A DNA stretch of 64,000 bases from Sebaldella termitidis ATCC 33386 (GTDB taxonomy: Bacteria > Fusobacteriota > Fusobacteriia > Fusobacteriales > Leptotrichiaceae), in assembly GCF_000024405.1 (NCBI RefSeq), contig NC_013517.1, positions 496,001-560,000 on the forward strand, written 5' to 3'. The position numbers and the translations under genes are program-made. Shown in pieces: positions 12,716 to 50,747 of the stretch. Position 1 is the stretch's first letter. Each line of letters opens with the position of its first letter. The notes beneath the pieces are model-generated. The model worked only from the letters and a program-made list of their open reading frames with translations, made no database searches and was not told where the DNA came from.

Positions 12716-13990
12716 TCATTCTCCGTCCTTAATTATTATTTTGTTTTCTTTTATCAATTTATTATATTCATAATACTCTTCTGAAGTATCTATTAATATT
12801 CGATTGGTATTTCTTGTATTTGAGTTTGCCAGATCGATTATTTTTTTAGCTTTTGCAAAATCACTGGGATCTCCTGATTCTAGAAATTTACTGTAGCTTT
12901 TTCCACCCTCTACAGTATCTATTACAAGTTTTGCTGTATCATAATATATTAATATTTCATCAGTTTCATGTTTATGATCATTATAAATATCAGAATATGA
13001 TTTTCCAGTTCCGACTGTTGATGAATAAGAACCACAAAATACAGCTTCCTGAGCTGGTTTTAACAGCTAGCTTAAAGGTGGCATCAGATCAGTGGGAGTT
13101 CCGGAAGCACGGCATATATTTGCTTTTATAGGATGTTCTTTTTCATATTCTTTTAAATAAGCTTCCTTAGCTAATTTGGTCTGTACGATTTCTCTTACTA
13201 TACTGTAATTTTTACCTGTAATTAATTTATTTATTGAAGAAATTCCACCATCCACAGCATACACTAATTTTACAGACGTATAAGTTATAGTACCGACTGC
13301 ACCGCTGGATGCTGTTGCTGTACCTAATCCCTGAGCAAGAGAAATAATTTTTTTAACCCCATTATATGCAGATAAAGCATCCATTGCTTTTATATATCCT
13401 TTTATAAATATATTATTGGTATTAGGGTCAACTCCGTAATACGGAGCCCTTTCACTCCACCACATCATAGCTCGGATATCTCCTAATTCTTCCTGACCAT
13501 TTGACATAAATACAAGCTGTAAAAGATCTTTTCCGTGATCAACAGCTTTTTGACATTTTAGTCTTGAACCCATTAAAAGAGGGTAGCCGCCGTTTACTTC
13601 AATTCCATCATAATAACTAATCCATTCAACAGGTTCTAAAGTACATGGAGCACCATCAATAGGACATTTGAGTTTTTCATATCCGCTGAAATATTTTATA
13701 TCAAGATCAGTAGTAAGAGCCAGTGGAAGAAGCCCAAAAAGAAAAACATTTCTGTCTGATGGTAAGCTCATAGTAATTAAAGGTGTAGCACCATTATATG
13801 GATTTATATTAGATGACTGTGAATAGGTATGATATCCCAGTTGTTCCTTACAGGTTAATGTAGCTCCGTCACTTATTAGCCTTTCTCCTGAGGTATTATC
13901 AAGGTCGTGGGTTGTGATATCATTTTGCCCAGTGATATCTTCGTTCGTATAAAATATCATATATTTTATATCTATATTATCCAAAAACAT
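12716..13990 (-). pseudogene. DUF4280 (PAAR-like) protein, interrupted by an in-frame TAG
   Basis: Starts at ATG 13990, right after the lipoprotein gene's stop, with AAAGGAG upstream. Residues ~35-170 match DUF4280: SDGATLTC.., a Cys-Pro segment KCPIDGAPCTLEPVEWISYYDG, and GGYPLLMGSRLKCQ, a fold thought to cap VgrG-type spikes. A Gly/Ala-rich hydrophobic stretch (~215-255) follows. After ..TDLMPPLS comes TAG (13069-13067), but the same frame then stays open for 116 codons (LLKPAQEAVFCGSYSS..) to TGA 12718-12716, which abuts the next start. So a 424-codon gene carries one nonsense codon; the 307-residue product may still be made. Confidence 0.75.
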
Positions 13991-14758
13991 CTACTTCTCC
14001 TTTAGTTCTTTCAGTTTTTTCTTTGAATTTTTGTAACCTGATTTTGCAGATTTTTTATACCAATAAACAGCTTTTTCTATGTTATTTAAGTTTTCTTCAT
14101 ATAAAATTCCTAAATTATATTGGGCAGCTAAATTACCTTGCGTTATCGCTTCTAAATACCATTTTTCTGCCTCATTAAAATCACCTGTTTTTTTGTAAAT
14201 AATACCTAAATTATTTTGTGAATCACTATCCTTATTTTCAGCAGCTTTCAAATACCACTTTTCTGCTTCTTTATACTTTTGTTGCTTCAAATATAAATAA
14301 CCTAAATTTTTCCACGCTTTTAAGTGATTTTGTTCTGCAGCCTTTAAATACCACTTTTCTGCTCCATTAAAATTGCCTTGTTTATATAATCTTACTCCTA
14401 AGTTATTTTGAACACTTGCCTCCCCCATCTCAGCAGCTTTTACTTCCCATTCCTTTATTTTTTCTTCATCTTTTTCTGAATTATACAATTCATATAATTT
14501 GACTGCTCCTCTTACATCCCCTAGTTCATATGCTTTTTCAAAGTATCTTATTGCAAGAGCCTTATTTCCATCACCATATGAAGCAATTCCCGAGATTAAC
14601 AAAGAGTCTAACTCACCGGGCTTTGTTCCGTCTACCTGACTCAGATATTCTTCACTTGCTTTTGATATTACGTCATTTCTACTGTTTTGCTTTTCACAAA
14701 ATAAACCTAGTAATGCTAAAAAGATAATTAGTAGAAATTTTAAATACTTTTTTTTCAA
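13991..14758 (-). CDS. Sel1/TPR-repeat lipoprotein
   Basis: 255 residues from TTG 14758, which best fits the upstream GAGGGGTGA; a GTG at 14767 is the alternative. The N-terminus KKKYLKFLLIIFLALLGLFC is a lipoprotein signal with Cys at 21. The mature part is a tandem array of ~36-residue Sel1-like repeats (A.KWYLKAAE..H..A..NLG.LY), about six units from residue ~55 to the end. Such solenoids bind partner proteins. Coding is coupled to the DUF4280 gene, which starts immediately after its stop. In this operon it could be a lipid-anchored immunity or loading protein. Confidence 0.8.
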   Translation of the reverse strand: MKKKYLKFLLIIFLALLGLFCEKQNSRNDVISKASEEYLSQVDGTKPGELDSLLISGIASYGDGNKALAIRYFEKAYELGDVRGAVKLYELYNSEKDEEKIKEWEVKAAEMGEASVQNNLGVRLYKQGNFNGAEKWYLKAAEQNHLKAWKNLGYLYLKQQKYKEAEKWYLKAAENKDSDSQNNLGIIYKKTGDFNEAEKWYLEAITQGNLAAQYNLGILYEENLNNIEKAVYWYKKSAKSGYKNSKKKLKELKEK

Positions 14759-14802
14759 GACTGTCACCCCTCACTTTCGTATTAAATAATTTTGTTTTTA
14801 GT

Positions 14803-16431
14803 CTATTTATTTATTATTACATTACCCCCGCCATTTATATTATATATTCCTCCTGATGTTGCAACTGTTTTCCCACTGGAAACCTGTGAAATTTCCTTTG
14901 CTATTGTTGATTTTACACCGCTGGAAATTTCTGTAATGTTTTTAGTATTAGCTGTATAATTCTCTGCTGTCATATTTGCATTTGTAGTATTCATGATCAT
15001 ATTATTTTTAGAATTCAAACCAATAAAGTCTGTTGTATTAACACTAAAAACTTTGCTATTTAATTGAAAATTAAACATTGGAGCACCGCCTGCACTATCA
15101 TCACCTGATAAAGTGTAATTTCTTATATTAGGGTTACTAAATCTTTCACTTCCGGGATTATTAACAGCACCAGTAACATAAGAAAAATTCTCATTATTTT
15201 GTGGAACATAAATTGTAACAATATCTCCTTTTTCCGGGGAACAGAACATGCCACTGTTACTACTGCTGTATTCCGTGCAGTATGGAAAATTATGTGAGCC
15301 GGCATATTCATCTTCATATGCCTGTGATTTTTTTTCTGCAGATTTTTCAAGTCCGTGAGAGAAATCAACAGTCATGGTTGCTATTCCGTCTGTTCCTCCT
15401 ATTTTTAATACTTTTCCTTCTATTATATAACCGACGGAATTTTTCAATGCTTCGAATTCATGTGATATTTCTATTAATTCATAATCATTAACAACATAAT
15501 TATCTTTCATTCTTAATAATGCCTTTGACACTATTCTTGTGTCTGTACCGTCTTCTCCTTGACTTCCTTGATTTTTAAGGGTTATCTTAACTCTTTCGCC
15601 TGTATTATACGGAGTAGCTGCTTCTCTGACTTTAAATATAATATTCTCTCCTTCTCTTCCGCGTCCATAGACAGCATTATCAAGTTCAGCATTATATATC
15701 TCTAAATTTATTTCATTCCCCATGATAATTTCGTCTAAATGTGAAGCCATTGGTATTCCCATATCCTTACATATTCTTACAAGAAAATCCCAGTCATTTT
15801 CATTGTATTGAATATATATTTTTTGAATATTCCTGTCAAATTCATTCCCAAGATACAATGTTATATCAGGATAATCAGCTATGACAGCTTCTGCAATCTC
15901 TCTATATGTCAGTTCCAAGCTTTGAAAAGATCTGAACTTTGTTATCTTACTCATTTGAAATGTTGCTGATGGAGTATTTATAAGCACTACTGCTCTTTCC
16001 CCCATACTTTCCTCTATGTTTATATTTTCAATATTAAATGTATGAAATATTTTTTTAAATTTTTCATCATTATTAATTAGTTCTATTTCCAATGTATTAT
16101 TCAAAGTAAAAACATAGCCATAATATTTATCTATTTCTTCAGAAGGTATTGTAAAAGTTAATTTTAGGTAATCATGACAAAAAAGAGTTTTATCAAGTTC
16201 AAAATTAATATCCTTAATATCTAAGATTTCACCGTTAAGTTTTAAAATAATATTTTTTCCGGTATACAATTCTGATATCTTATTTCTAGATTTTTCTAAT
16301 AAACCATTAAGTCCAGAACTATTAATTTCTTTTGTGTTCTGACCCCTTGCAGAATTATTTATTAGTCCTCTATTTCCAGAATATTTTTCTTCTAATTCGT
16401 TAAAAATATCATCTAATGTTTTATTGCCCAT
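14803..16431 (-). CDS. VgrG-like spike protein
   Basis: 542 residues, GGAGG before ATG 16431. After ~55 variable residues comes a gp27/phage-late-control-D-like domain with the typical IQYNENDWDFLVRICKDMGIPM (~210-235). A gp5-like OB-fold follows (~360-430: IATMTVDFSHG..FPYCTEYSSSNSGMFCSPEKGDIVTIYVPQ..SYVTGAVNN), and then a C-terminal beta-repeat stalk (NTTNANMTAENYTAN..) ending NGGGNVIINK. VgrG trimers form the puncturing tip of type VI and other contractile injection systems. The five genes downstream are in the same direction; no sheath, tube, baseplate or ATPase genes are in the window, so this is an orphan cargo cluster. Confidence 0.85.
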   Translation of the reverse strand: MGNKTLDDIFNELEEKYSGNRGLINNSARGQNTKEINSSGLNGLLEKSRNKISELYTGKNIILKLNGEILDIKDINFELDKTLFCHDYLKLTFTIPSEEIDKYYGYVFTLNNTLEIELINNDEKFKKIFHTFNIENINIEESMGERAVVLINTPSATFQMSKITKFRSFQSLELTYREIAEAVIADYPDITLYLGNEFDRNIQKIYIQYNENDWDFLVRICKDMGIPMASHLDEIIMGNEINLEIYNAELDNAVYGRGREGENIIFKVREAATPYNTGERVKITLKNQGSQGEDGTDTRIVSKALLRMKDNYVVNDYELIEISHEFEALKNSVGYIIEGKVLKIGGTDGIATMTVDFSHGLEKSAEKKSQAYEDEYAGSHNFPYCTEYSSSNSGMFCSPEKGDIVTIYVPQNNENFSYVTGAVNNPGSERFSNPNIRNYTLSGDDSAGGAPMFNFQLNSKVFSVNTTDFIGLNSKNNMIMNTTNANMTAENYTANTKNITEISSGVKSTIAKEISQVSSGKTVATSGGIYNINGGGNVIINK

Positions 16432-39044: not shown

Positions 39045-40847
39045 TCATAAAAAACGATTTTCAATATCATTAAAAAATTCTATTAGTTCAGCCTCGCTTT
39101 TTTCTCCGTAACTTTGAGCTAAAATTTTACCTTTTTCAAAAACTATTAATGTCGGAATTCCTCTTATCTGGTATTTCTCTATAAATTCAGTTTTTTTATC
39201 TACATCAATATACTCAAATTTAAGTTTATTCTTATACTTTGAAATAATTTTGACTAAAATCAAATATAGATTTTTGCAATGTACACATCTCTCCGCTCCA
39301 AATAAAACCAATATTTTTTCTTCATTACGATTTTCTGCTTCTTTCTTTTCTGCTGTATTATTTTCTGTAAAAATTTCTCTGTCTATTGTAAATAATTTAG
39401 GACTCCTTTTTATATTTTCCTGATCAACTATGATACAAAGAGCATCGCTGCTGTCTTCATAAGGTCTTAGCCCTTCTACTTTTATTATTGAAGCAGCTCC
39501 CGTTTTTGCAGCATTAGGAAGTCTGAAATTCCTTATATCTGGTGCTGTTATTGATTTTTCTTCTGGTTTTTCTAGCTGGGGTATCCAATCATATGGTATT
39601 CTGTATGCCCGATAAATCATATTATTTTTTGTAGTTTTCCCCCAGTACGGAGAAATAAATTCCCACACTATTTCATGTTCCGGAGTAACCTCAAATATTC
39701 TCCCGTCTGCACCTTCATCAATTAATGTGTTGCCATTCTCCAGCCTTTGTGCACTGCTGATATAAGGACTATAAAATCTAAATGAATCTGTAGGATGTGG
39801 AAATCCTGCTTCTGCTGGCGTATACTGCCACACAATATCAAGTGTTACCGGATTTATTTCCAATATTCTCGAATAATCTCTCAAGGCATTTTTCTGCCCA
39901 ATTTTTGACATTGGATTTATTTCTCCATATCCTCCCCAGCCTCCATTATCAAAAACCAGTATATTTCCTTCACCCGGTAATCCCTTAGGTATCATATGAG
40001 CATGATGCTGACCTATTATCCAGCCGATGTGTTTTAATTCCTCTTTAGAATAATCAGGGCCTAATTTCCAGACTATTTTACCGCTCCTCTTTTCAATTAT
40101 TGCTATAATATTAGACTCTCTTGCATCCCATATGATATTATCGGGGTGAAATCTCTCGTCTCCCTGATCATACCATTTATTAGGACCCAAAGTTGACATT
40201 GAATTTATATGCATCCAGTCTCCCATGCCTTCTCCGGCTTTTCTCATATTAGGATCTCTGAATAAGACATTTTTAGCCGCTTCATCAAATCCTAACTCAT
40301 CAAAATGATCACTGCAAATCCATTCCCATATTACGTTTCCTTCCCAGTCTACTTCTATTATAGCGTCATCTAAAAGAAGCTTATCTGAGATTTTTTTATT
40401 ATATAAATTTTTATGTACTAAAATAAGTGTATTTCCGCTGTTAATTTTAGGTTCCTGGCCAGGTGAGTAATATCCTGTTGAACTTCCTTCTCTTTGATAG
40501 TCATGATGTGCCCTTGCCATCCACTCAGCCTCATTCTCACCATCTTTTATATATTCGTATCTGTTAAATTTCCATACAATATTTCCTTCCCAGTCTATTT
40601 GGATAAGATCTATCATATCCTGCATTCCATACTTTGGGTTCCTGCTTCCCGAATGTCCTAAAATATGTCCGCCCGGAAATATTTTATTTGGAAATCCATG
40701 CAGCCCTTCCCATAAACGCAGCTCTTTTCCATTCATATCTAATAATACCGCTCCCAGCTCACATGCCTGTATTATCGTATATCCGTTCCATGCCTTGTCA
40801 GAATTATAAATAGTTACTCCTGTAGGATAAACTGTCGGGTGTCCCAT
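39045..40847 (-). CDS. Arylsulfotransferase-thioredoxin fusion protein
   Basis: 600 residues, AAAGGAG before ATG 40847. Residues ~1-430 match the arylsulfotransferase (ASST) beta-propeller: repeated blade motifs DWEGNIVWKF, DWEGNVIWEW, GKIVWKL, LDIVWQY, EIVWEF, and conserved His segments ARAHHDYQ, DWMHINSM, GQHHAHMI. ASST enzymes move sulfate groups between aryl esters through a sulfo-histidine. Residues ~505-600 are a thioredoxin domain (ILVLFGAERCVHCKNLYLIL, Cys521/Cys524; cis-Pro at RGIPTLIVF). No signal peptide, so the fusion should be cytoplasmic, unlike periplasmic AssT. It sits between sulfite reductase and the importer, suggesting release or reductive handling of a sulfo group. Confidence 0.85.
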   Translation of the reverse strand: MGHPTVYPTGVTIYNSDKAWNGYTIIQACELGAVLLDMNGKELRLWEGLHGFPNKIFPGGHILGHSGSRNPKYGMQDMIDLIQIDWEGNIVWKFNRYEYIKDGENEAEWMARAHHDYQREGSSTGYYSPGQEPKINSGNTLILVHKNLYNKKISDKLLLDDAIIEVDWEGNVIWEWICSDHFDELGFDEAAKNVLFRDPNMRKAGEGMGDWMHINSMSTLGPNKWYDQGDERFHPDNIIWDARESNIIAIIEKRSGKIVWKLGPDYSKEELKHIGWIIGQHHAHMIPKGLPGEGNILVFDNGGWGGYGEINPMSKIGQKNALRDYSRILEINPVTLDIVWQYTPAEAGFPHPTDSFRFYSPYISSAQRLENGNTLIDEGADGRIFEVTPEHEIVWEFISPYWGKTTKNNMIYRAYRIPYDWIPQLEKPEEKSITAPDIRNFRLPNAAKTGAASIIKVEGLRPYEDSSDALCIIVDQENIKRSPKLFTIDREIFTENNTAEKKEAENRNEEKILVLFGAERCVHCKNLYLILVKIISKYKNKLKFEYIDVDKKTEFIEKYQIRGIPTLIVFEKGKILAQSYGEKSEAELIEFFNDIENRFL

Positions 40848-44241: not shown

Positions 44242-44664
44242 TCATTTTAAATTAGAAATTCGTTTTTCCTCAGCAGCTTTCTTTAAGCGTTCTGTGATTA
44301 TTTCTACTGCATTAGATGATTCATATGCCTCAATTTTCAAATTTAATAAACTTAGGTTATCTTTCAGCATATCGATCTGTTTAAGTATTTCTTTTTTATG
44401 TTTATTTAGTAATTCATTACGAAGTGCAATTGTTTCTGTTCCTTTCATACATAAATCAATATATTTTTTAATATCACGGATTGGCATTCCTGTATCTTTT
44501 AAACAACATATTGTCTGTATCATATTTAAATCAGATTCTGTAAAAACCCTATTTCCTTTTTGGTTCCGCAGCACAAAAGGTAAAAGACCTTTTTTATCAT
44601 AAAAACGTATTGTATGTACGGAAAGTTTAAAACGTACTGCTACATCATTAATTGAATAATTCAT
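44242..44664 (-). CDS. MerR-family regulator
   Basis: 140 residues, AAGGAG before ATG 44664. N-terminal helix-turn-helix MNYSINDVAVRFKLSVHTIRFYDKKGLLPF, wing (R.QKGNRVFTESDLNMI) and a long dimerisation helix (~75-125). The short C-terminus has no metal-binding Cys cluster, so it is an AdhR/aldehyde- or redox-responsive type rather than a metal sensor. It is divergent from the SDR gene. The shared region holds a promoter with the 19-bp spacer typical of MerR activation. Confidence 0.88.
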   Translation of the reverse strand: MNYSINDVAVRFKLSVHTIRFYDKKGLLPFVLRNQKGNRVFTESDLNMIQTICCLKDTGMPIRDIKKYIDLCMKGTETIALRNELLNKHKKEILKQIDMLKDNLSLLNLKIEAYESSNAVEIITERLKKAAEEKRISNLK

Positions 44665-44690
44665 ACAAAATACTCCTTAAAAAAATATGT

Positions 44691-44721
44691 TTGACTTAGA
44701 CCATAGTCTAAGTGGTAATAT
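44691..44721 (+). promoter_or_regulatory. MerR-type promoter with palindromic operator
   Basis: TTGACT (44691-44696), 19-nt spacer, TAATAT (44716-44721). The perfect palindrome CTTAGAC-CATA-GTCTAAG (44695-44712) lies between the boxes, the arrangement MerR proteins untwist to activate. Confidence 0.82.
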
Positions 44722-44765
44722 AACTATATAACATTATTAAACAAATTTCAAGAGGAGGTATCATC

Positions 44766-45527
44766 ATGGATATAAAAGAAAAAACTGCTATAATAACAGG
44801 CGGAAGTCGCGGTCTTGGCCGGAATACAGCCCTTAATCTTGCAAGTCGGGGAGTAAATATTATTTTTACTTATAACTCTAATAAATTTGAAGCAGAAAAG
44901 ACTCTCCAACTTATTCAAGAGTATGGAGTAAATGGAGCTATGTTAAATCTTGATACAGCTAATACTAAATTATTTGATGCTTTTGTACAAAATGTTGAGA
45001 AAATTTTACAGGAATGGAAGTGTAAAACATTTAATTACCTGATTAACAACGCTGGAACATCACATCACAATTCAATTGAAAATACTACAGAAGAAGAATT
45101 AGACACTCTTTATAATGTCCATTTTAAGGGAGTGTTCTTTCTTACGCAAAAACTCCTTATGCTTCTTAATGACGGAGGGAGTATAATTAATATTTCCACA
45201 GGTCTAACACGATTTACTTCACCTGGAAGCGCAGCTTATGCGTCTATAAAAGGTGCCGTTGAAGTGATGACACGTTATTTGGCAATGGAATTAGGACCAC
45301 GTAAAATCACCGTAAATACTATTGCTCCCGGAGCCATTCAAACAGATTTCAGTGGGGGTGTAGTCCGTGATAATCCTGAAGTAAATAAAATGATAGCTGA
45401 GCATACAGCACTGGGTCGTGCTGGTGTTCCGGATGATATCGGACCTATGATTGCTTCACTATTATCAGATAGTAATAGATGGGTAACCGGTCAGCGTATT
45501 GAAGTTTCCGGAGGAATGTTTCTTTAA
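44766..45527 (+). CDS. Short-chain dehydrogenase/reductase
   Basis: 253 residues, AGAGGAGG before ATG. Cofactor motif TGGSRGLG (11-18), NNAG (94-97), catalytic Ser (INISTG) and Tyr158-x3-Lys162 (YASIKGA), and the APGAIQTDF loop. Classical SDR related to 3-oxoacyl-ACP reductases and sugar/alcohol dehydrogenases; NADP(H) preference is suggested by Ser-Arg in the Gly-rich loop. Activated by the divergent MerR protein, so it probably detoxifies a reactive carbonyl. Substrate unknown. Confidence 0.9.
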   Translation: MDIKEKTAIITGGSRGLGRNTALNLASRGVNIIFTYNSNKFEAEKTLQLIQEYGVNGAMLNLDTANTKLFDAFVQNVEKILQEWKCKTFNYLINNAGTSHHNSIENTTEEELDTLYNVHFKGVFFLTQKLLMLLNDGGSIINISTGLTRFTSPGSAAYASIKGAVEVMTRYLAMELGPRKITVNTIAPGAIQTDFSGGVVRDNPEVNKMIAEHTALGRAGVPDDIGPMIASLLSDSNRWVTGQRIEVSGGMFL

Positions 45528-45598: not shown

Positions 45599-45640
45599 GA
45601 GCTGTATCTAAAAAATTTATTTTGATACAGCTCTTTTTTT
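45599..45640 (+). terminator. Terminator after the SDR gene
   Basis: Perfect 10-bp stem GAGCTGTATC/GATACAGCTC followed by seven T. Same arms as at 33775-33815; a half copy (GGGCTGTATCAAAAT) lies at ~47706. Confidence 0.88.
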
Positions 45641-45655
45641 GTAACTATTTTACAA
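45639..45655. promoter_or_regulatory. TTGTAA-N5-TTACAA palindrome, site 1
   Basis: One of three identical-arm palindromes in 380 bp. This one overlaps the T-run of the SDR terminator; the other two sit inside the promoters of the tandem peptide genes. Confidence 0.55.
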
Positions 45656-45682
45656 TTATAGAAAATAATTTCAAATTTTTTA

Positions 45683-45711
45683 TTGACATAATTTTGTAAA
45701 TAAGTTACAAT
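45683..45711 (+). promoter_or_regulatory. Promoter of first secreted-peptide gene, with palindrome
   Basis: TTGACA (45683-45688), 17-nt spacer, TACAAT (45706-45711). TTGTAA-N5-TTACAA (45694-45710) covers the -10 box, an ideal repressor site. Confidence 0.75.
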
Positions 45712-45787
45712 AATTTCATCTAAGATACAAGAATTGGAAATAAAAACAAAAAATAACAAATAAATTAATTGGTTAAGGAGGCTTATC

Positions 45788-45916
45788 ATGAAAAAGACAA
45801 TATCAATACTAGCATTAACACTGACAGTATCATTCACAGCACTGGCTGATGCAGTATCATATGATTCGTCAAAAGAAATAATTGACAGAATACAATTAGA
45901 AATGAAACATAAATAA
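45788..45916 (+). CDS. Tiny secreted peptide precursor 1
   Basis: 42 codons, AAGGAGG before ATG 45788. Signal peptide MKKTISILALTLTVSFTALA with a clear Ala-x-Ala-type cleavage site, releasing a 22-residue peptide that begins DAVSYDSSKEIIDRI and ends LEMKHK. The peptide is charged and likely helical. The gene at 46090 encodes exactly the same mature peptide with a different signal sequence. Too short for usual gene callers. No family known to me; the location after the signal suggests the periplasm or outside. Confidence 0.75.
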   Translation: MKKTISILALTLTVSFTALADAVSYDSSKEIIDRIQLEMKHK

Positions 45917-45986
45917 ATTTTGAAATTATAAATATATATTTTACTGTTAACTTGTAAGCACAGAAAAATAATTTCAAAAATTTTTT

Positions 45987-46015
45987 TTAGAATTATTTTG
46001 TAAATTAATTACAAT
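45987..46015 (+). promoter_or_regulatory. Promoter of second secreted-peptide gene, with palindrome
   Basis: TTAGAA (45987-45992), 17-nt spacer, TACAAT (46010-46015). TTGTAA-N5-TTACAA (45998-46014) sits exactly as in the first copy although the spacer bases differ. Confidence 0.7.
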
Positions 46016-46089
46016 TTATTTATCTGAAATACAAATATTGTAAAAGAAAACAAATATCAAATAAAATAACTATTTTAAGGAGGTCAGCC

Positions 46090-46218
46090 ATGAAAAAAAT
46101 ATTATTAATACCGGCATTAACATTGGCAGTATCATTCACAGCTTTAGCTGATGCAGTATCATATGATTCGTCAAAAGAAATAATTGACAGAATACAGTTA
46201 GAAATGAAACATAAATAA
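46090..46218 (+). CDS. Tiny secreted peptide precursor 2
   Basis: 42 codons, AAGGAGG before ATG 46090. Signal MKKILLIPALTLAVSFTALA differs from that of precursor 1 at several positions, yet the following 22 residues are identical (DAVSYDSSKE..LEMKHK), with one silent change visible (CAA/CAG). Upstream DNA is a diverged tandem copy (~300 bp unit). Conservation of the mature peptide while the signal drifts suggests selection on the peptide. Confidence 0.75.
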   Translation: MKKILLIPALTLAVSFTALADAVSYDSSKEIIDRIQLEMKHK

Positions 46219-46267: not shown

Positions 46268-47224
46268 ATGGAATATAAAGGTTTTGGACTTGGATGCATG
46301 AGCTTATCAACTGCTGATCAGGCGGAAAGTTCTGCTGTTATACATACAGCTTTAGATGAAGGTATTTCTTTTTTGAATACTGGGGATTTCTATGGTTCAG
46401 GGGAAAGTGAGATGGCTGTCGGAGAGGCTCTAAAAGGTTACAGCCGTGAAAAATATTACATATCAGTAAAATTCGGGGCTCTTACAATGCCAAATGGCGG
46501 GCTGTATAGTTTGGATGTACATCCTGACAGGATTAAAAACTATCTGACTCACTCCCTGAAGCGTTTAAAACTTGACTATATTGACTTATATCAGCCTTGC
46601 AGGATTGATCTTGGTATCCCTGTAGAAGAAACTATCGGGGCAATTTCAGATTTGGTTAAAGAAGGATATGTGCGACATATCGGACTTAGTCAGGTAGATT
46701 CTGAAACAATCAAAAGAGCTCAGGCAGTTCATAAAATAGAGCTGGTAGAAATGGAGTATTCTTTATTTAATCGCGGCATAGAAAAGGATATCCTTTCAAC
46801 AGCCCGTAAATTAGATATTGGAGTTGTGTCATTCGGGACGCTTGCCCATGGACTTTTAAGCGGTTCATGGACTAAAGAACGTCTTAAACATGGTGAATTC
46901 CCATTACATATGATGAGTCCGCTGTTATCAAAAGAAAACGTTGAAAAAAACATTGAGTTTGTTGAAAACTTAGACCAAATTGCAAATGAAAAAAATGTAA
47001 GTGTATCTCAGCTTGCTCACGCTTGGATTTTGTCAAAAGGAGACGATATTATACCGCTTATCGGAACAAGCAAGGTGAAACATTTAAAAAATTCTCTGGA
47101 GTCTAAAAATCTGTTTTTAAGCGAAGAAGATATACAAAGAATAGAAAATGCAGTGCCGCAGGATAAGATTTCCGGTGAAAGTTTACGAAGAATGCAGTTT
47201 AAGAATGGAGTCATAGTCAGATAG
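46268..47224 (+). CDS. Aldo-keto reductase
   Basis: 318 residues from ATG 46268 (TTGGAGG upstream; the longer frame from 46223 lacks a site). Conserved FLNTGDFYGSGESE (Asp40, Tyr42), Lys68 (ISVKFG), then DYIDLYQPCRIDLGIPVEETIGAISDLVKEGYVRHIGLSQV and SPLLSKENVEKN, with a C-terminal NADPH site (IIPLIGTSKVKHL). A YQP(A/C)R segment instead of a catalytic His is usual in this branch. Probably reduces aldehydes or ketones with NADPH. The start lies 50 bp after the second peptide gene, so it may share that transcript. Confidence 0.88.
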   Translation: MEYKGFGLGCMSLSTADQAESSAVIHTALDEGISFLNTGDFYGSGESEMAVGEALKGYSREKYYISVKFGALTMPNGGLYSLDVHPDRIKNYLTHSLKRLKLDYIDLYQPCRIDLGIPVEETIGAISDLVKEGYVRHIGLSQVDSETIKRAQAVHKIELVEMEYSLFNRGIEKDILSTARKLDIGVVSFGTLAHGLLSGSWTKERLKHGEFPLHMMSPLLSKENVEKNIEFVENLDQIANEKNVSVSQLAHAWILSKGDDIIPLIGTSKVKHLKNSLESKNLFLSEEDIQRIENAVPQDKISGESLRRMQFKNGVIVR

Positions 47225-47288: not shown

Positions 47289-47687
47289 ATGAATGAAGTA
47301 TTAGAATTTTTAAAAAACTGCAAAGTATTTTTTGTTGCAACAGCAGAGCAGGGAAAGCCTAAAGTCAGGCCGTTTAGTTTTGTTATGATGCATGAAGAAA
47401 AGTTATATTTTGTAACAGGAAATCAAAAACCATTTTTTAAGCAAATTCAGGCAAATCCGGAAATTGAAATATGCGGAACCAGCCAAAAAATGGAATGGAT
47501 ACGTCTTAGCGGTAAAGCTGTTCCGGATTCGAGACTTGAGATAAAACAGAGAGCATTTGAGGAATTACCGTTTCTTAAGAATAACTATAAGTCAGTTGAA
47601 AATCCGGTAATGGAATGCTTTTATCTGGGAGAAGCCAAGGCTGATTTTTGTAAAATAGACGGATCATCAAAGACAGTTGTTCTCTAA
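47289..47687 (+). CDS. Pyridoxamine-phosphate-oxidase-like flavin protein
   Basis: 132 residues, ATGGAGG before ATG. Split-barrel fold: VLEFLKNCKVFFVATAEQGKPKVRPFSFVMMHEEKLYFVTGNQKPFFKQIQANPEIEICGTS.., the pattern of short FMN-binding PPOX-family proteins. Likely binds FMN or F420-like cofactor and acts as a small reductase. Same direction as the aldo-keto reductase, 64 bp downstream. Confidence 0.85.
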   Translation: MNEVLEFLKNCKVFFVATAEQGKPKVRPFSFVMMHEEKLYFVTGNQKPFFKQIQANPEIEICGTSQKMEWIRLSGKAVPDSRLEIKQRAFEELPFLKNNYKSVENPVMECFYLGEAKADFCKIDGSSKTVVL

Positions 47688-47841: not shown

Positions 47842-49278
47842 ATGAACACTGAGAAATATGAACAATATAAAAATAAAAACGTAATTTTAATTACAGTATT
47901 ACTGCTTGCTTTTATGACTTCACTTGACGGAAGTATAGTAAATGTAGCCCTACCTATGATGTCAGAAAGCTTATCTGTCAATACACAATCTATAAGCTGG
48001 GTTTTTTCTTCCTATTTGATAGGAATTTGTACTCTCATATTAGCATTTGGAAAACTGGGAGATCTTAAGGGAAAAATGAAAGTTTTCAAAACAGGAATTC
48101 TCATATTTACACTGGGTTCAATGATGTCTGGATTATCTGCGGCCTTTCCCTTTCTTATAACAGCAAGAATCATTCAGGCTGTAGGAGCTGCCGCATCTAT
48201 GGCCACAAGCCAGGGAATTATCACAGAAGCTGTTCCAAGAAATGAAATTGGTAAAGCCTTTGGGTTATTTGGTACTTGTATAGCTTTAGGAACTATGATG
48301 GGAGCACCAATAGGCGGCTTTATAATTTCCATATTTAAATGGAACTACATTTTCTTCTTTAATGTTCCTATTGGGATCATAATATTTATTTTATGCTTTA
48401 AGTTTTTACCCAAAGAACATGTAAATAACGGAAAGTTTCCTGATATAAGAGGCTTTTTACTTTTTGTGATAACTATAGTCAGTTTTTTTATCGCTGTAAT
48501 GCAGGGAGGTGCTGTGGGCTACGGTAATCCTTTTATAATCAGCTGCTTTGTTATTTCGATAGCAGCGTTTATTTTCTTTGTTTTTACAGAGAAAAGAGCT
48601 GATGACCCAATGCTTGACTTGGATATATTTAAATCAAAATCATTTTCGATAAGTATTTTTTGCTCATTTTTAAGCTTTGTAGCAATCTTCTGTCTGTTAA
48701 TAATCAATCTGTTTTACTTACATTATGCGAGGGAATATGATCCTTCTTTTATAGGGCTGTTAATGATGTTTTATTCAATAATCCTTACTTTATCATCACT
48801 TTTCAGCGGTATACTTTCAGATAAGATACGCCCTGAGCTTTTGACTTTCACAGGCTTAGCAATTATGGGAGCAGGTTTTTTCTTCATGACACTCTTAAAT
48901 ATAAGCACTCCTATATTCTTATTATTGATTTTTATGGCACTTATAGGCTTGGGAGCAGGACTGTTTCAATCACCAAACAATTCATTGGTAATGTCTGCAG
49001 CGAGTAAAGATAAGCTTGGGATTGCGGGAAGCGTAAATGCATTGGTAAGAAATATAGGAATGAGTATCGGTATAGCGGTAGCTACTATTCTTTTATACGA
49101 TAGAATGAGTCAGAAAGCAGGATATAAGGTTTCGACCTATGTAGCAGGAAGCGATGATATCTTTCTTTACGGGATGAGATATGTCTATGTTGTGGCAGGA
49201 ATACTCTGTGTAATTGGGGCAATTATTACTTTTATGAGATTTTATCACCAAAAAATAAGCTTTAATAATAAAAACTGA
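47842..49278 (+). CDS. MFS drug exporter, DHA2 (EmrB/QacA) family
   Basis: 478 residues with about 14 membrane helices. Motif D1-like LAFMTSLDGSIVNVALPMM, motif A GKLGDLKGKMKVF, and motif C-like GTCIALGTMMGAPIGG are present and typical of 14-TM proton-coupled multidrug exporters. AAAAGGAG precedes ATG 47842. The EmrA partner is not here (the HlyD gene at 18693 is far away). Followed 15 bp later by a broken SDR gene. Confidence 0.9.
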   Translation: MNTEKYEQYKNKNVILITVLLLAFMTSLDGSIVNVALPMMSESLSVNTQSISWVFSSYLIGICTLILAFGKLGDLKGKMKVFKTGILIFTLGSMMSGLSAAFPFLITARIIQAVGAAASMATSQGIITEAVPRNEIGKAFGLFGTCIALGTMMGAPIGGFIISIFKWNYIFFFNVPIGIIIFILCFKFLPKEHVNNGKFPDIRGFLLFVITIVSFFIAVMQGGAVGYGNPFIISCFVISIAAFIFFVFTEKRADDPMLDLDIFKSKSFSISIFCSFLSFVAIFCLLIINLFYLHYAREYDPSFIGLLMMFYSIILTLSSLFSGILSDKIRPELLTFTGLAIMGAGFFFMTLLNISTPIFLLLIFMALIGLGAGLFQSPNNSLVMSAASKDKLGIAGSVNALVRNIGMSIGIAVATILLYDRMSQKAGYKVSTYVAGSDDIFLYGMRYVYVVAGILCVIGAIITFMRFYHQKISFNNKN

Positions 49279-49292
49279 AAGGAATGACTCTT

Positions 49293-49560
49293 ATGAAAAC
49301 AATCATTATTACAGGTGCGAATTCCGGTTTGGGATTTGAATGTGCCAAAAATATACTTTTGGAAAATTCGGACTATTTTATCATTATGGCATGCCGGAAT
49401 ATTGAAAAATCCGAGAAAGCCAAGATAGAATTAATAGGAAAAACAAAAAATAAAAATATTCAGGTTATGGAATTAAATTTATCATCATTTGACTCTGTGA
49501 GATGATTTGTAAATGATTTTAAAAATAAACAACTATTGTAATATGTAGATGTAATCTGCG
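49293..49560 (+). pseudogene. Broken short-chain dehydrogenase
   Basis: From ATG 49293 (GAAAGGA upstream) it reads KTIIITGANSGLGFECAKNIL.., the SDR cofactor motif, up to LNLSSFDSVR, then TGA 49503-49505. The frame continues as FVNDFKNKQLL, a TAA, and YVDVIC, matching the next segment of light-dependent protochlorophyllide-reductase-like SDRs (SFDSVR.FV..F). The catalytic half is missing. Inactive. Confidence 0.8.
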
Positions 49561-49701: not shown

Positions 49702-50283
49702 ATGAAAAAAATAGCGAAGATATTTTTATGTGTATTATTTATAAGTATCTCTATGATATCCTGCTCTCAGGGAAATAAGGGAGGTAAAATCAGTAACACC
49801 AATAAAACATTGATCATATATTACTCAGCATCCGGGACTACTGAAAAAGTAGCAAAGGAACTGCAAAGAAAAACAAAGGGCGATATATATTTTATTAAAA
49901 CTAATATGCCGTATTCAACAGATCAAGAGGTTTTGGGAAAAGAAATGGCACTTGAGAGAGAAAACGGGAATATTCGTGAATTAAGTGGGGAACTACCAGA
50001 CTTATCCAATTATGACCTGATTTTGATAGGAGGACCTGTATGGTCCGGGGAGCCTTCAAATCCTATTCAAAAGTACCTCAGTATAACTGATTTTAACGGA
50101 AAAAAAGTAGCAGGGTTTTGGACAGCTTACGGAGAGCCGGGAGATTATGCGAATGTATTTAAAAAATTAGTGAAGAATGTCGAATTACACGAAGGTCTCA
50201 GCTTAATAAATACAGATGTCTCAAATGAGAAAGAATTAGAGAGTAAAATAAATACATGGTTAAGTACACTAGGTATTTTATAA
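49702..50283 (+). CDS. Flavodoxin-domain lipoprotein
   Basis: 193 residues from ATG 49702 (GTGAGGAG upstream). Lipoprotein signal KKIAKIFLCVLFISISMISC with Cys21. Flavodoxin core: TLIIYYSASGTTEKVAKEL (phosphate loop SASGTT), DLILIGGPVWSGEPSNPIQKYL, GKKVAGFWTAYGEPGDY. It carries FMN and transfers electrons, here anchored to a membrane. Flavodoxins of this subgroup are often found with aldo-keto reductases, as in this neighbourhood. The next gene starts 45 bp later. Confidence 0.88.
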   Translation: MKKIAKIFLCVLFISISMISCSQGNKGGKISNTNKTLIIYYSASGTTEKVAKELQRKTKGDIYFIKTNMPYSTDQEVLGKEMALERENGNIRELSGELPDLSNYDLILIGGPVWSGEPSNPIQKYLSITDFNGKKVAGFWTAYGEPGDYANVFKKLVKNVELHEGLSLINTDVSNEKELESKINTWLSTLGIL

Positions 50284-50327: not shown

Positions 50328-50747
50328 ATGAGAAATATTTTAGTTTTATTTTTGACAGGATTTCTTTCTCTTGCAGTTATAAGCAATACAGTTATTAATA
50401 ATAAGCAGAAAAATCCGGCAGTTTCAGAAGAAACGAAGACAAAATCAGCCAATACATATGATTTACTGGAAGAATATAAGAAAGATGCATCTAAAAGACA
50501 GCCTACATACACAGGAGAGAATATCACGGTATCAGGTGTTGTCGTTTATAAAGGACCGGATATTCATGGACTTCCTTCGCTTGAATTATCAGATAAAGTA
50601 AATGGAACAAGTCATGTTTTATGTGTATTTGACTCAGCAGATTCACTTAACAAAATATCTAAAGGAGATAATCTCACAATTTCAGGAAAATTCCATATTG
50701 TAAGCTCTGATGATATGGTTGTACTAAAACAGAGCAAGATACAATAA
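50328..50747 (+). CDS. Exported OB-fold (tRNA_anti-like) protein
   Basis: 139 residues from ATG 50328 (ACGGAG upstream). Hydrophobic signal/anchor RNILVLFLTGFLSLAVISN. The mature region has YDLLEEYKKDASKRQPTYTGENITVSGVVVYKGPD..LELSDKVNGTSHVLCVFDSADSLNKISKGDNLTISGKF, the OB-fold pattern of the tRNA_anti-like family of secreted proteins. Ligand unknown. Probably co-transcribed with the flavodoxin lipoprotein. Confidence 0.7.
   Translation: MRNILVLFLTGFLSLAVISNTVINNKQKNPAVSEETKTKSANTYDLLEEYKKDASKRQPTYTGENITVSGVVVYKGPDIHGLPSLELSDKVNGTSHVLCVFDSADSLNKISKGDNLTISGKFHIVSSDDMVVLKQSKIQ

Follow-up and report, generated by a model that had tools for sequence, protein, structure and literature searches.

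The window, the whole stretch of 64,000 nucleotides of DNA analysed here from Sebaldella termitidis, a bacterium of termite guts in the family Leptotrichiaceae, carries two tandem genes on its forward strand, each encoding a peptide of 42 amino acids. Copy 1 (45788-45916) is composed of the signal MKKTISILALTLTVSFTALA (45788-45847) and a 22-residue mature part, DAVSYDSSKEIIDRIQLEMKHK (45848-45913), which contains a conserved 20-residue core (45854-45913). Copy 2 (46090-46218) has the signal MKKILLIPALTLAVSFTALA (46090-46149), again followed by DAVSYDSSKEIIDRIQLEMKHK (46150-46215), with the core at 46156-46215. Both genes are preceded by the ribosome-binding site AAGGAGG on the same strand, at 45775-45781 and 46077-46083, respectively. 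The preliminary description had reported two such ORFs with signal peptides and identical mature parts, and both points were confirmed, 22 of 22 mature residues being the same. It had also stated that the signals and the upstream DNA have diverged. The signals do differ, by five synonymous and five non-synonymous changes, but the divergence upstream is partial: over 89 nt the two regions keep 73% identity, and the same palindrome occurs in both. Depending on the predicted cleavage site, the candidate mature form is DAVSYDSSKEIIDRIQLEMKHK or VSYDSSKEIIDRIQLEMKHK.

Structurally, the AlphaFold2 model places a second helix at residues 28-40 behind the signal helix, with a block pLDDT of 92, and the mature peptide is modelled as a short extended N-terminus followed by an N-capped helix. 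Read by eye, the S/T-P/S-K/E-E stretch serves as a capping box for the helix, and an i/i+4 ladder is made up of E30, R34 and E38. Conservation extends to both helix faces (also by eye), which suggests a specific partner for the modelled helix rather than membrane lysis.

The peptide family and selection on its core

A profile of the 20-residue core, searched against 98 Fusobacteriota genomes, recovered at least 23 copies of the core, spread over three Sebaldella genomes, all with E <= 1.2e-11, followed by a sharp gap with nothing further below E 0.03 across the phylum. This answers the proposal of the preliminary description to search Fusobacteriota for homologues; none was found outside these three genomes, either in the 95 other Fusobacteriota, in genomes of other species, or among viruses, phages and plasmids, and a viral or plasmid origin is unsupported by these searches. 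Eight copies were found in the genome of S. termitidis itself. Besides the window pair these are another tandem pair (590379 and 590560), three single copies (584369, 3843724 and 3332821) and a longer, 60-aa version (1423156), in which additional residues separate signal and core. The other copies belong to two further genomes of the genus, G088, whose contigs match the metagenome-assembled genome Sebaldella sp. Gw_Prim_bin_201, and G089. Copy numbers and E-values of this kind put the observation well beyond chance. The fourth genus member, G090, is 86% complete, and neither the peptide nor the regulator MerR111 described below was found in it; of the four genus genomes sampled, one is a complete assembly and three are drafts.

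The copies are arranged singly, in pairs, or four in a row (G088 contig 35), and in G089 a single broken array may account for the copies at the end of contig 79 and at the start of contig 61. Nearly all copies follow the core pattern [VI][ST]YD[ST][SP][KE]EI[IT]xRxQxEM[KR]HK, with HK as the last two residues. The core is the C-terminal end of the protein in every copy and is exactly 20 residues long in all 22 complete copies, with no indels. Mature parts span 20-22 residues, the 60-aa copy being the one exception. All complete copies have signal-type N-termini, and nearly all have a hydrophobic signal with an A-x-A-type cleavage site. A related ORF in G088 (contig 80, L061 4685-4831) encodes a 48-aa lipoprotein, MKKMIRILVVLSAMLFIISCSSTGVTYDNPQDIIKDDQATLHDKDHDF, in which a degenerate first half of the core lies behind a lipobox that takes the place of the signal-peptidase-I site. 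Its sequence makes it a possible membrane-anchored relative, and the lipobox would fit an envelope location. The export proposed in the preliminary description is supported by the anatomy of the signals and by this related ORF.

The peptide does not reach the cut-off of any Pfam or NCBIfam model, and Rfam gave no match. The sequence matches in Pfam, NCBIfam and PDB were rejected as chance or signal-peptide matches, as were weak full-length HMM matches in other Fusobacteriota, which were essentially matches to the signal peptide. The best of the short, weak matches to the core profile were, by eye, proteins of the HicA, GrpE, RlmN or SecG type, and these were also set aside. Searches for published work on Sebaldella or on fusobacterial small exported peptides returned none. 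The claim that the peptide had not been described before holds within the libraries searched (Pfam, NCBIfam, PDB, other genomes, viruses, phages and plasmids), and by its sequences the family is Sebaldella-specific, a multicopy family of tiny genes without any protein-family model. Tiny exported-type ORFs are otherwise rare, a census of 400 kb of the S. termitidis genome having found none. A second exported-type ORF, of 53 aa, comes immediately after the 60-aa family member, downstream of a MarR gene (L066 5968-6129; G000 C1:1422967-1423128); it has no convincing relatives in the phylum and was rejected as a family member.

The identity of the two mature parts had been taken as a sign of selection on the mature peptide. 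From the pair alone this does not follow. The core of the window pair has one synonymous and no non-synonymous difference, against five of each in the signal. Since the core is poor in synonymous changes as well, the pair fits gene conversion; it is explained equally well by gene conversion, by a recent duplication of the 3' half, or by selection. The wider family, compared for synonymous and non-synonymous change as had been proposed, does bear the claim out. Across the family the core has a pS of 0.64 and a pN of 0.13, a ratio of 0.20, compared with 0.54 for the signal. Additionally, the dispersed copies at 584369 and 3843724, which lie 3.26 Mb apart, differ in the core by four synonymous and no non-synonymous changes. 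Judged by the high pS and low pN of the core, the wholly synonymous changes of the dispersed pair and the fixed core length, purifying selection is acting on the peptide core.

Promoters, operators and regulators

Copy 1 is preceded on the forward strand by the promoter TTGACA-17-TACAAT (45683-45711), which matches the consensus at 11 of 12 positions and is the best in the region. Palindromes of the type TTGTAA-N5-TTACAA accompany it as putative operators. The proximal one, TTGTAAATAAGTTACAA (45694-45710), overlaps the spacer and the -10 element, and the distal one, TTGTAACTATTTTACAA (45639-45655), lies 55 bp upstream of it, the operator-to-operator distance at most sister loci being 53-56 bp. 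A third putative operator, TTGTAAATTAATTACAA (45998-46014), lies over the promoter of copy 2, TTTAGA-18-TACAAT (45986-46015), which is weaker than that of copy 1. The exact palindrome occurs seven times in the whole S. termitidis genome, and four of these seven are at peptide genes (probability by chance about 2e-13). The composite promoter element is common to peptide loci of the three Sebaldella genomes; with up to two mismatches it is found at seven sites in the four genomes of the genus, every one of them intergenic and just upstream of peptide genes.

The probable binder of these operators is MerR111, a MerR protein of 111 aa (C1:589856-590188). Its gene is divergent from the peptide genes at three loci, and its close homologues within the phylum are confined to the three peptide-bearing genomes, G090 being without one. 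At four loci the palindrome, with up to two mismatches, stands 39-93 nt upstream of the start of MerR111 itself; at one of the four, that of the second copy in G089, no peptide gene adjoins. The best NCBIfam match of MerR111 is TnrA (E 1.6e-12), although its score against the TnrA model NF053740, 47.5 bits, is below the cut-off of 140. Because of this divergence, the distribution in the same genomes, the palindrome at its own promoter and TnrA as its best match, MerR111 probably binds the paired TTGTAA-N5-TTACAA operators at the window copies. The TnrA/GlnR box is TGTNA-N7-TNACA, and promoters of TnrA and GlnR are optimally spaced at 17 bp (PMC6191146). The Sebaldella element resembles it in the half-site TGTAA/TTACA and in the 17-bp promoter spacing, whereas the half-sites are 5 apart rather than 7 and the model score is far below the cut-off. 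No link of MerR111 to glutamine synthetase was seen.

Other copies adjoin regulators of the LmrA/YxaF-like TetR, MarR, PucR or TetR type. The copy at 3332821 has a divergent LmrA/YxaF-like TetR gene (PF21993, TetR_C_13_2, 7.4e-29; PF00440, TetR HTH, 2.7e-14), with an orthologous TetR at the orthologous locus of G089, and AGACCGGTC lies just after the -10 element at the LmrA-like TetR locus. The quercetin-responsive PqdoR has its operator directly after the -10 (PMC8481877). The Sebaldella TetR is like the flavonoid-responsive LmrA/QdoR (YxaF) proteins of Bacillus in its C-terminal Pfam domain and in the position of its putative operator, but its apparent target is a tiny exported peptide, not a quercetin dioxygenase or a drug exporter. 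At G000 C1:3332821 and 3334000, the LmrA-like TetR is followed by a MerR protein with a Cass2/GyrI-like effector domain. A MarR gene lies upstream of the 60-aa version, a PucR-type regulator at locus L055, and a TetR gene together with an FMN reductase gene at locus L060. Genes of the 584369/3843724 type stand alone, with an inverted repeat and T-run behind them and with a conserved upstream element of their own, TTCTAAGGAAA..AGACAC..TGCCATATT..TATAAT, shared by the two loci. This conserved element makes it likely, on sequence grounds, that a further regulator governs this type.

Gene neighbourhood

The window copies probably head an operon. An aldo/keto reductase gene follows on the forward strand at 46268-47224, with no terminator detected after copy 2, and is probably in the same operon. 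Behind it, on the same strand, are genes for a PNPOx-like flavoprotein (47289-47687) and an MFS transporter (47842-49278), both placed with the reductase in the probable operon; in both G089 and G088, homologues of the transporter follow peptide genes or lie close to them. Further along the forward strand, the same module includes a flavodoxin with a lipoprotein-type signal (49702-50283), whose homologue is directly behind the peptide gene on G088 contig 20, and a tRNA_anti-like OB-fold protein with an N-terminal export-type segment (50328-50747). A truncated SDR gene of 70 aa (49293-49505) lies behind the MFS gene, and a longer homologue of it stands directly behind the peptide gene on G089 contig 63. 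On the other side, an NmlR-like MerR gene and an SDR gene (44242-45527) form a separate unit ending in a probable intrinsic terminator on the forward strand (45599-45640), a perfect 10-bp stem, GAGCTGTATC/GATACAGCTC, followed by a T-run; this was read by eye, the loop being too long for the scan.

Behind peptide genes in G088, in G089 and at 590 kb in S. termitidis, parts of the module reappear in differing orders, accompanied by DUF2316 and an MBL-fold lipoprotein. Of 15 peptide places, 7 have redox genes within 2 kb; for random places drawn from 400 kb the share is 3.6%. This contrast is inflated by the fact that the query genes came partly from peptide loci. About half of the peptide places (S590, S584, S3843, S3332, B79, B83, B3 and C35) have no redox query gene within 3 kb, several of them being near contig ends. 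A close homologue of the operon's reductase (E <= 1e-60) was not found in other Fusobacteriota, and the neighbourhoods read contained no receptor or target gene accompanying every copy.

Proposed role and rival explanations

The preliminary description had offered three roles for the peptide: signalling, antimicrobial or envelope. The envelope role fits best, because the peptide genes lie in putative xenobiotic/redox stress regulons, a setting that had been missed. We propose, with a probability of roughly one half, a Sec-exported peptide of 20-22 residues that would be induced by xenobiotic or redox stress under small-molecule-sensing regulators and would act in the envelope. The family, its export signals, the selection on it, the promoter elements and the gene neighbourhood come directly from sequence, and we infer the following course of events. 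A toxic aromatic, carbonyl or redox-active compound would be sensed by a small-molecule regulator, leading to transcription of the peptide gene. At the window copies this regulator would be the TnrA-like MerR111, acting through the paired TTGTAA-N5-TTACAA operators; for other copies it would be an LmrA/YxaF-like TetR, MarR, PucR-type or TetR protein. The precursor would be exported by Sec and its signal cut, releasing the 20-22-residue peptide into the periplasm. It would be made together or in parallel with detoxifying redox proteins, namely the aldo/keto reductase, PNPOx flavoprotein, flavodoxin lipoprotein, FMN reductase, SDR and MFS efflux proteins. In the periplasm it would most likely bind a specific envelope partner and protect or adjust the envelope while toxic aromatic or carbonyl compounds are present, in a mode of action comparable to that of the small periplasmic stress proteins RclB and BhsA.

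The DUF1471 family, which includes YhcN, BhsA, McbA and RclB, belongs to Enterobacteriaceae and has 10 paralogues in E. coli, several of which have links to different stresses; the RclB protein comes from the operon that encodes the HOSCN reductase RclA, and the mechanism of most DUF1471 proteins is unknown (PMC12096828, PMC4092069). The Sebaldella peptides are alike in their Sec signal, in having several paralogues per genome (eight in S. termitidis) and in the stress-type regulators beside many of them. They differ in host, Fusobacteriota as opposed to Enterobacteriaceae, and in the mature part, a single predicted helix of 20-22 residues instead of an alpha+beta domain of about 70. None of 22 copies matches the DUF1471 Pfam model at E <= 1, and membership of that family is excluded by size, fold and sequence.

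The main rival is that the exported 20-mer, or its C-terminal EMKHK, serves as an intercellular or self-sensing signal of toxic exposure, comparable to Phr and PapR. These are short Sec precursors in which the C-terminus is the active part, and Phr-type paralogues differ among themselves to stay specific. The Sebaldella precursors share this architecture, a signal followed by a short peptide with a conserved C-terminus, and the many copies with drifting signals and identical mature parts under different regulators would also suit a signal. However, all 20 residues are conserved and not the C-terminus alone, the mature sequence of the paralogues is nearly one, unlike that of Phr-type paralogues, and no RRNPP receptor, protease or oligopeptide importer was seen beside any copy, nor was a receptor or processing gene found nearby for the signalling role first suggested. 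We consider this rival possible but unlikely.

The toxin, bacteriocin and leader-peptide readings fit poorly. An antimicrobial peptide or bacteriocin, the other role first suggested, would be small, helical, exported and present in several copies, as these peptides are, but the cationic amphipathic mature part expected of a class II bacteriocin is lacking: the net charge is -2 to +1, the hydrophobic moment is within that of shuffles in most copies, and no immunity or dedicated exporter gene was found in the neighbourhoods read; with a detoxification-gene setting and a sequence under purifying selection, this role is very improbable. A type I toxin, a small membrane peptide silenced by antisense RNA, is scarcely more credible. 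The tandem and dispersed small ORFs, hydrophobic and charged in part, do recall the multicopy Ldr, Ibs and Hok toxins, yet here the hydrophobic half is variable and ends in A-x-A and the polar C-terminus is the conserved part, the promoters are specific and regulated, and the genes have an operon position. As regards an antisense RNA, Rfam has no match, and the promoter-like sites on the minus strand of this region are weak, matching 9-10 of 12 positions. Equally improbable as a bacteriocin is a leader peptide or a non-translated region governing the downstream reductase operon. The ORF is short, near the promoter and first in the operon; on the other hand, S584, S3843 and B83 are solitary genes, each with an inverted repeat and T-run behind it (read by eye), up to four copies stand in a row on G088 contig 35, and neither a signal peptide nor selection at the amino-acid level would be expected of a leader.

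A wider form of the envelope reading, which we offer tentatively and hold to be doubtful, is that one 20-residue helical exported peptide serves as the common envelope effector under at least four unrelated xenobiotic sensors (the TnrA-like MerR, LmrA-like TetR, MarR and PucR/TetR types), its signals drifting while the peptide stays frozen. If so, few known exported stress effectors would be as small, and it would have a defined envelope receptor. How RclB, BhsA and their relatives work is an open question in the field, and a fully conserved 20-residue peptide makes synthesis, labelling and the fishing for partners much easier than a folded protein does. The family also illustrates how tiny multicopy genes that lack a protein-family model can be identified and placed through their promoters and regulators.

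Two further loci in the window were read by eye. A protein of 600 aa (39045-40847), with what look like an arylsulfotransferase-type domain and a C-terminal thioredoxin domain, adjoins a sulfonate-type ABC transporter and a sulfite/nitrite-reductase-like protein. At 13067-16431, a VgrG-like protein, a Sel1-repeat-like lipoprotein and a PAAR/DUF4280-like protein look like a cluster of the type VI or contractile-injection kind.
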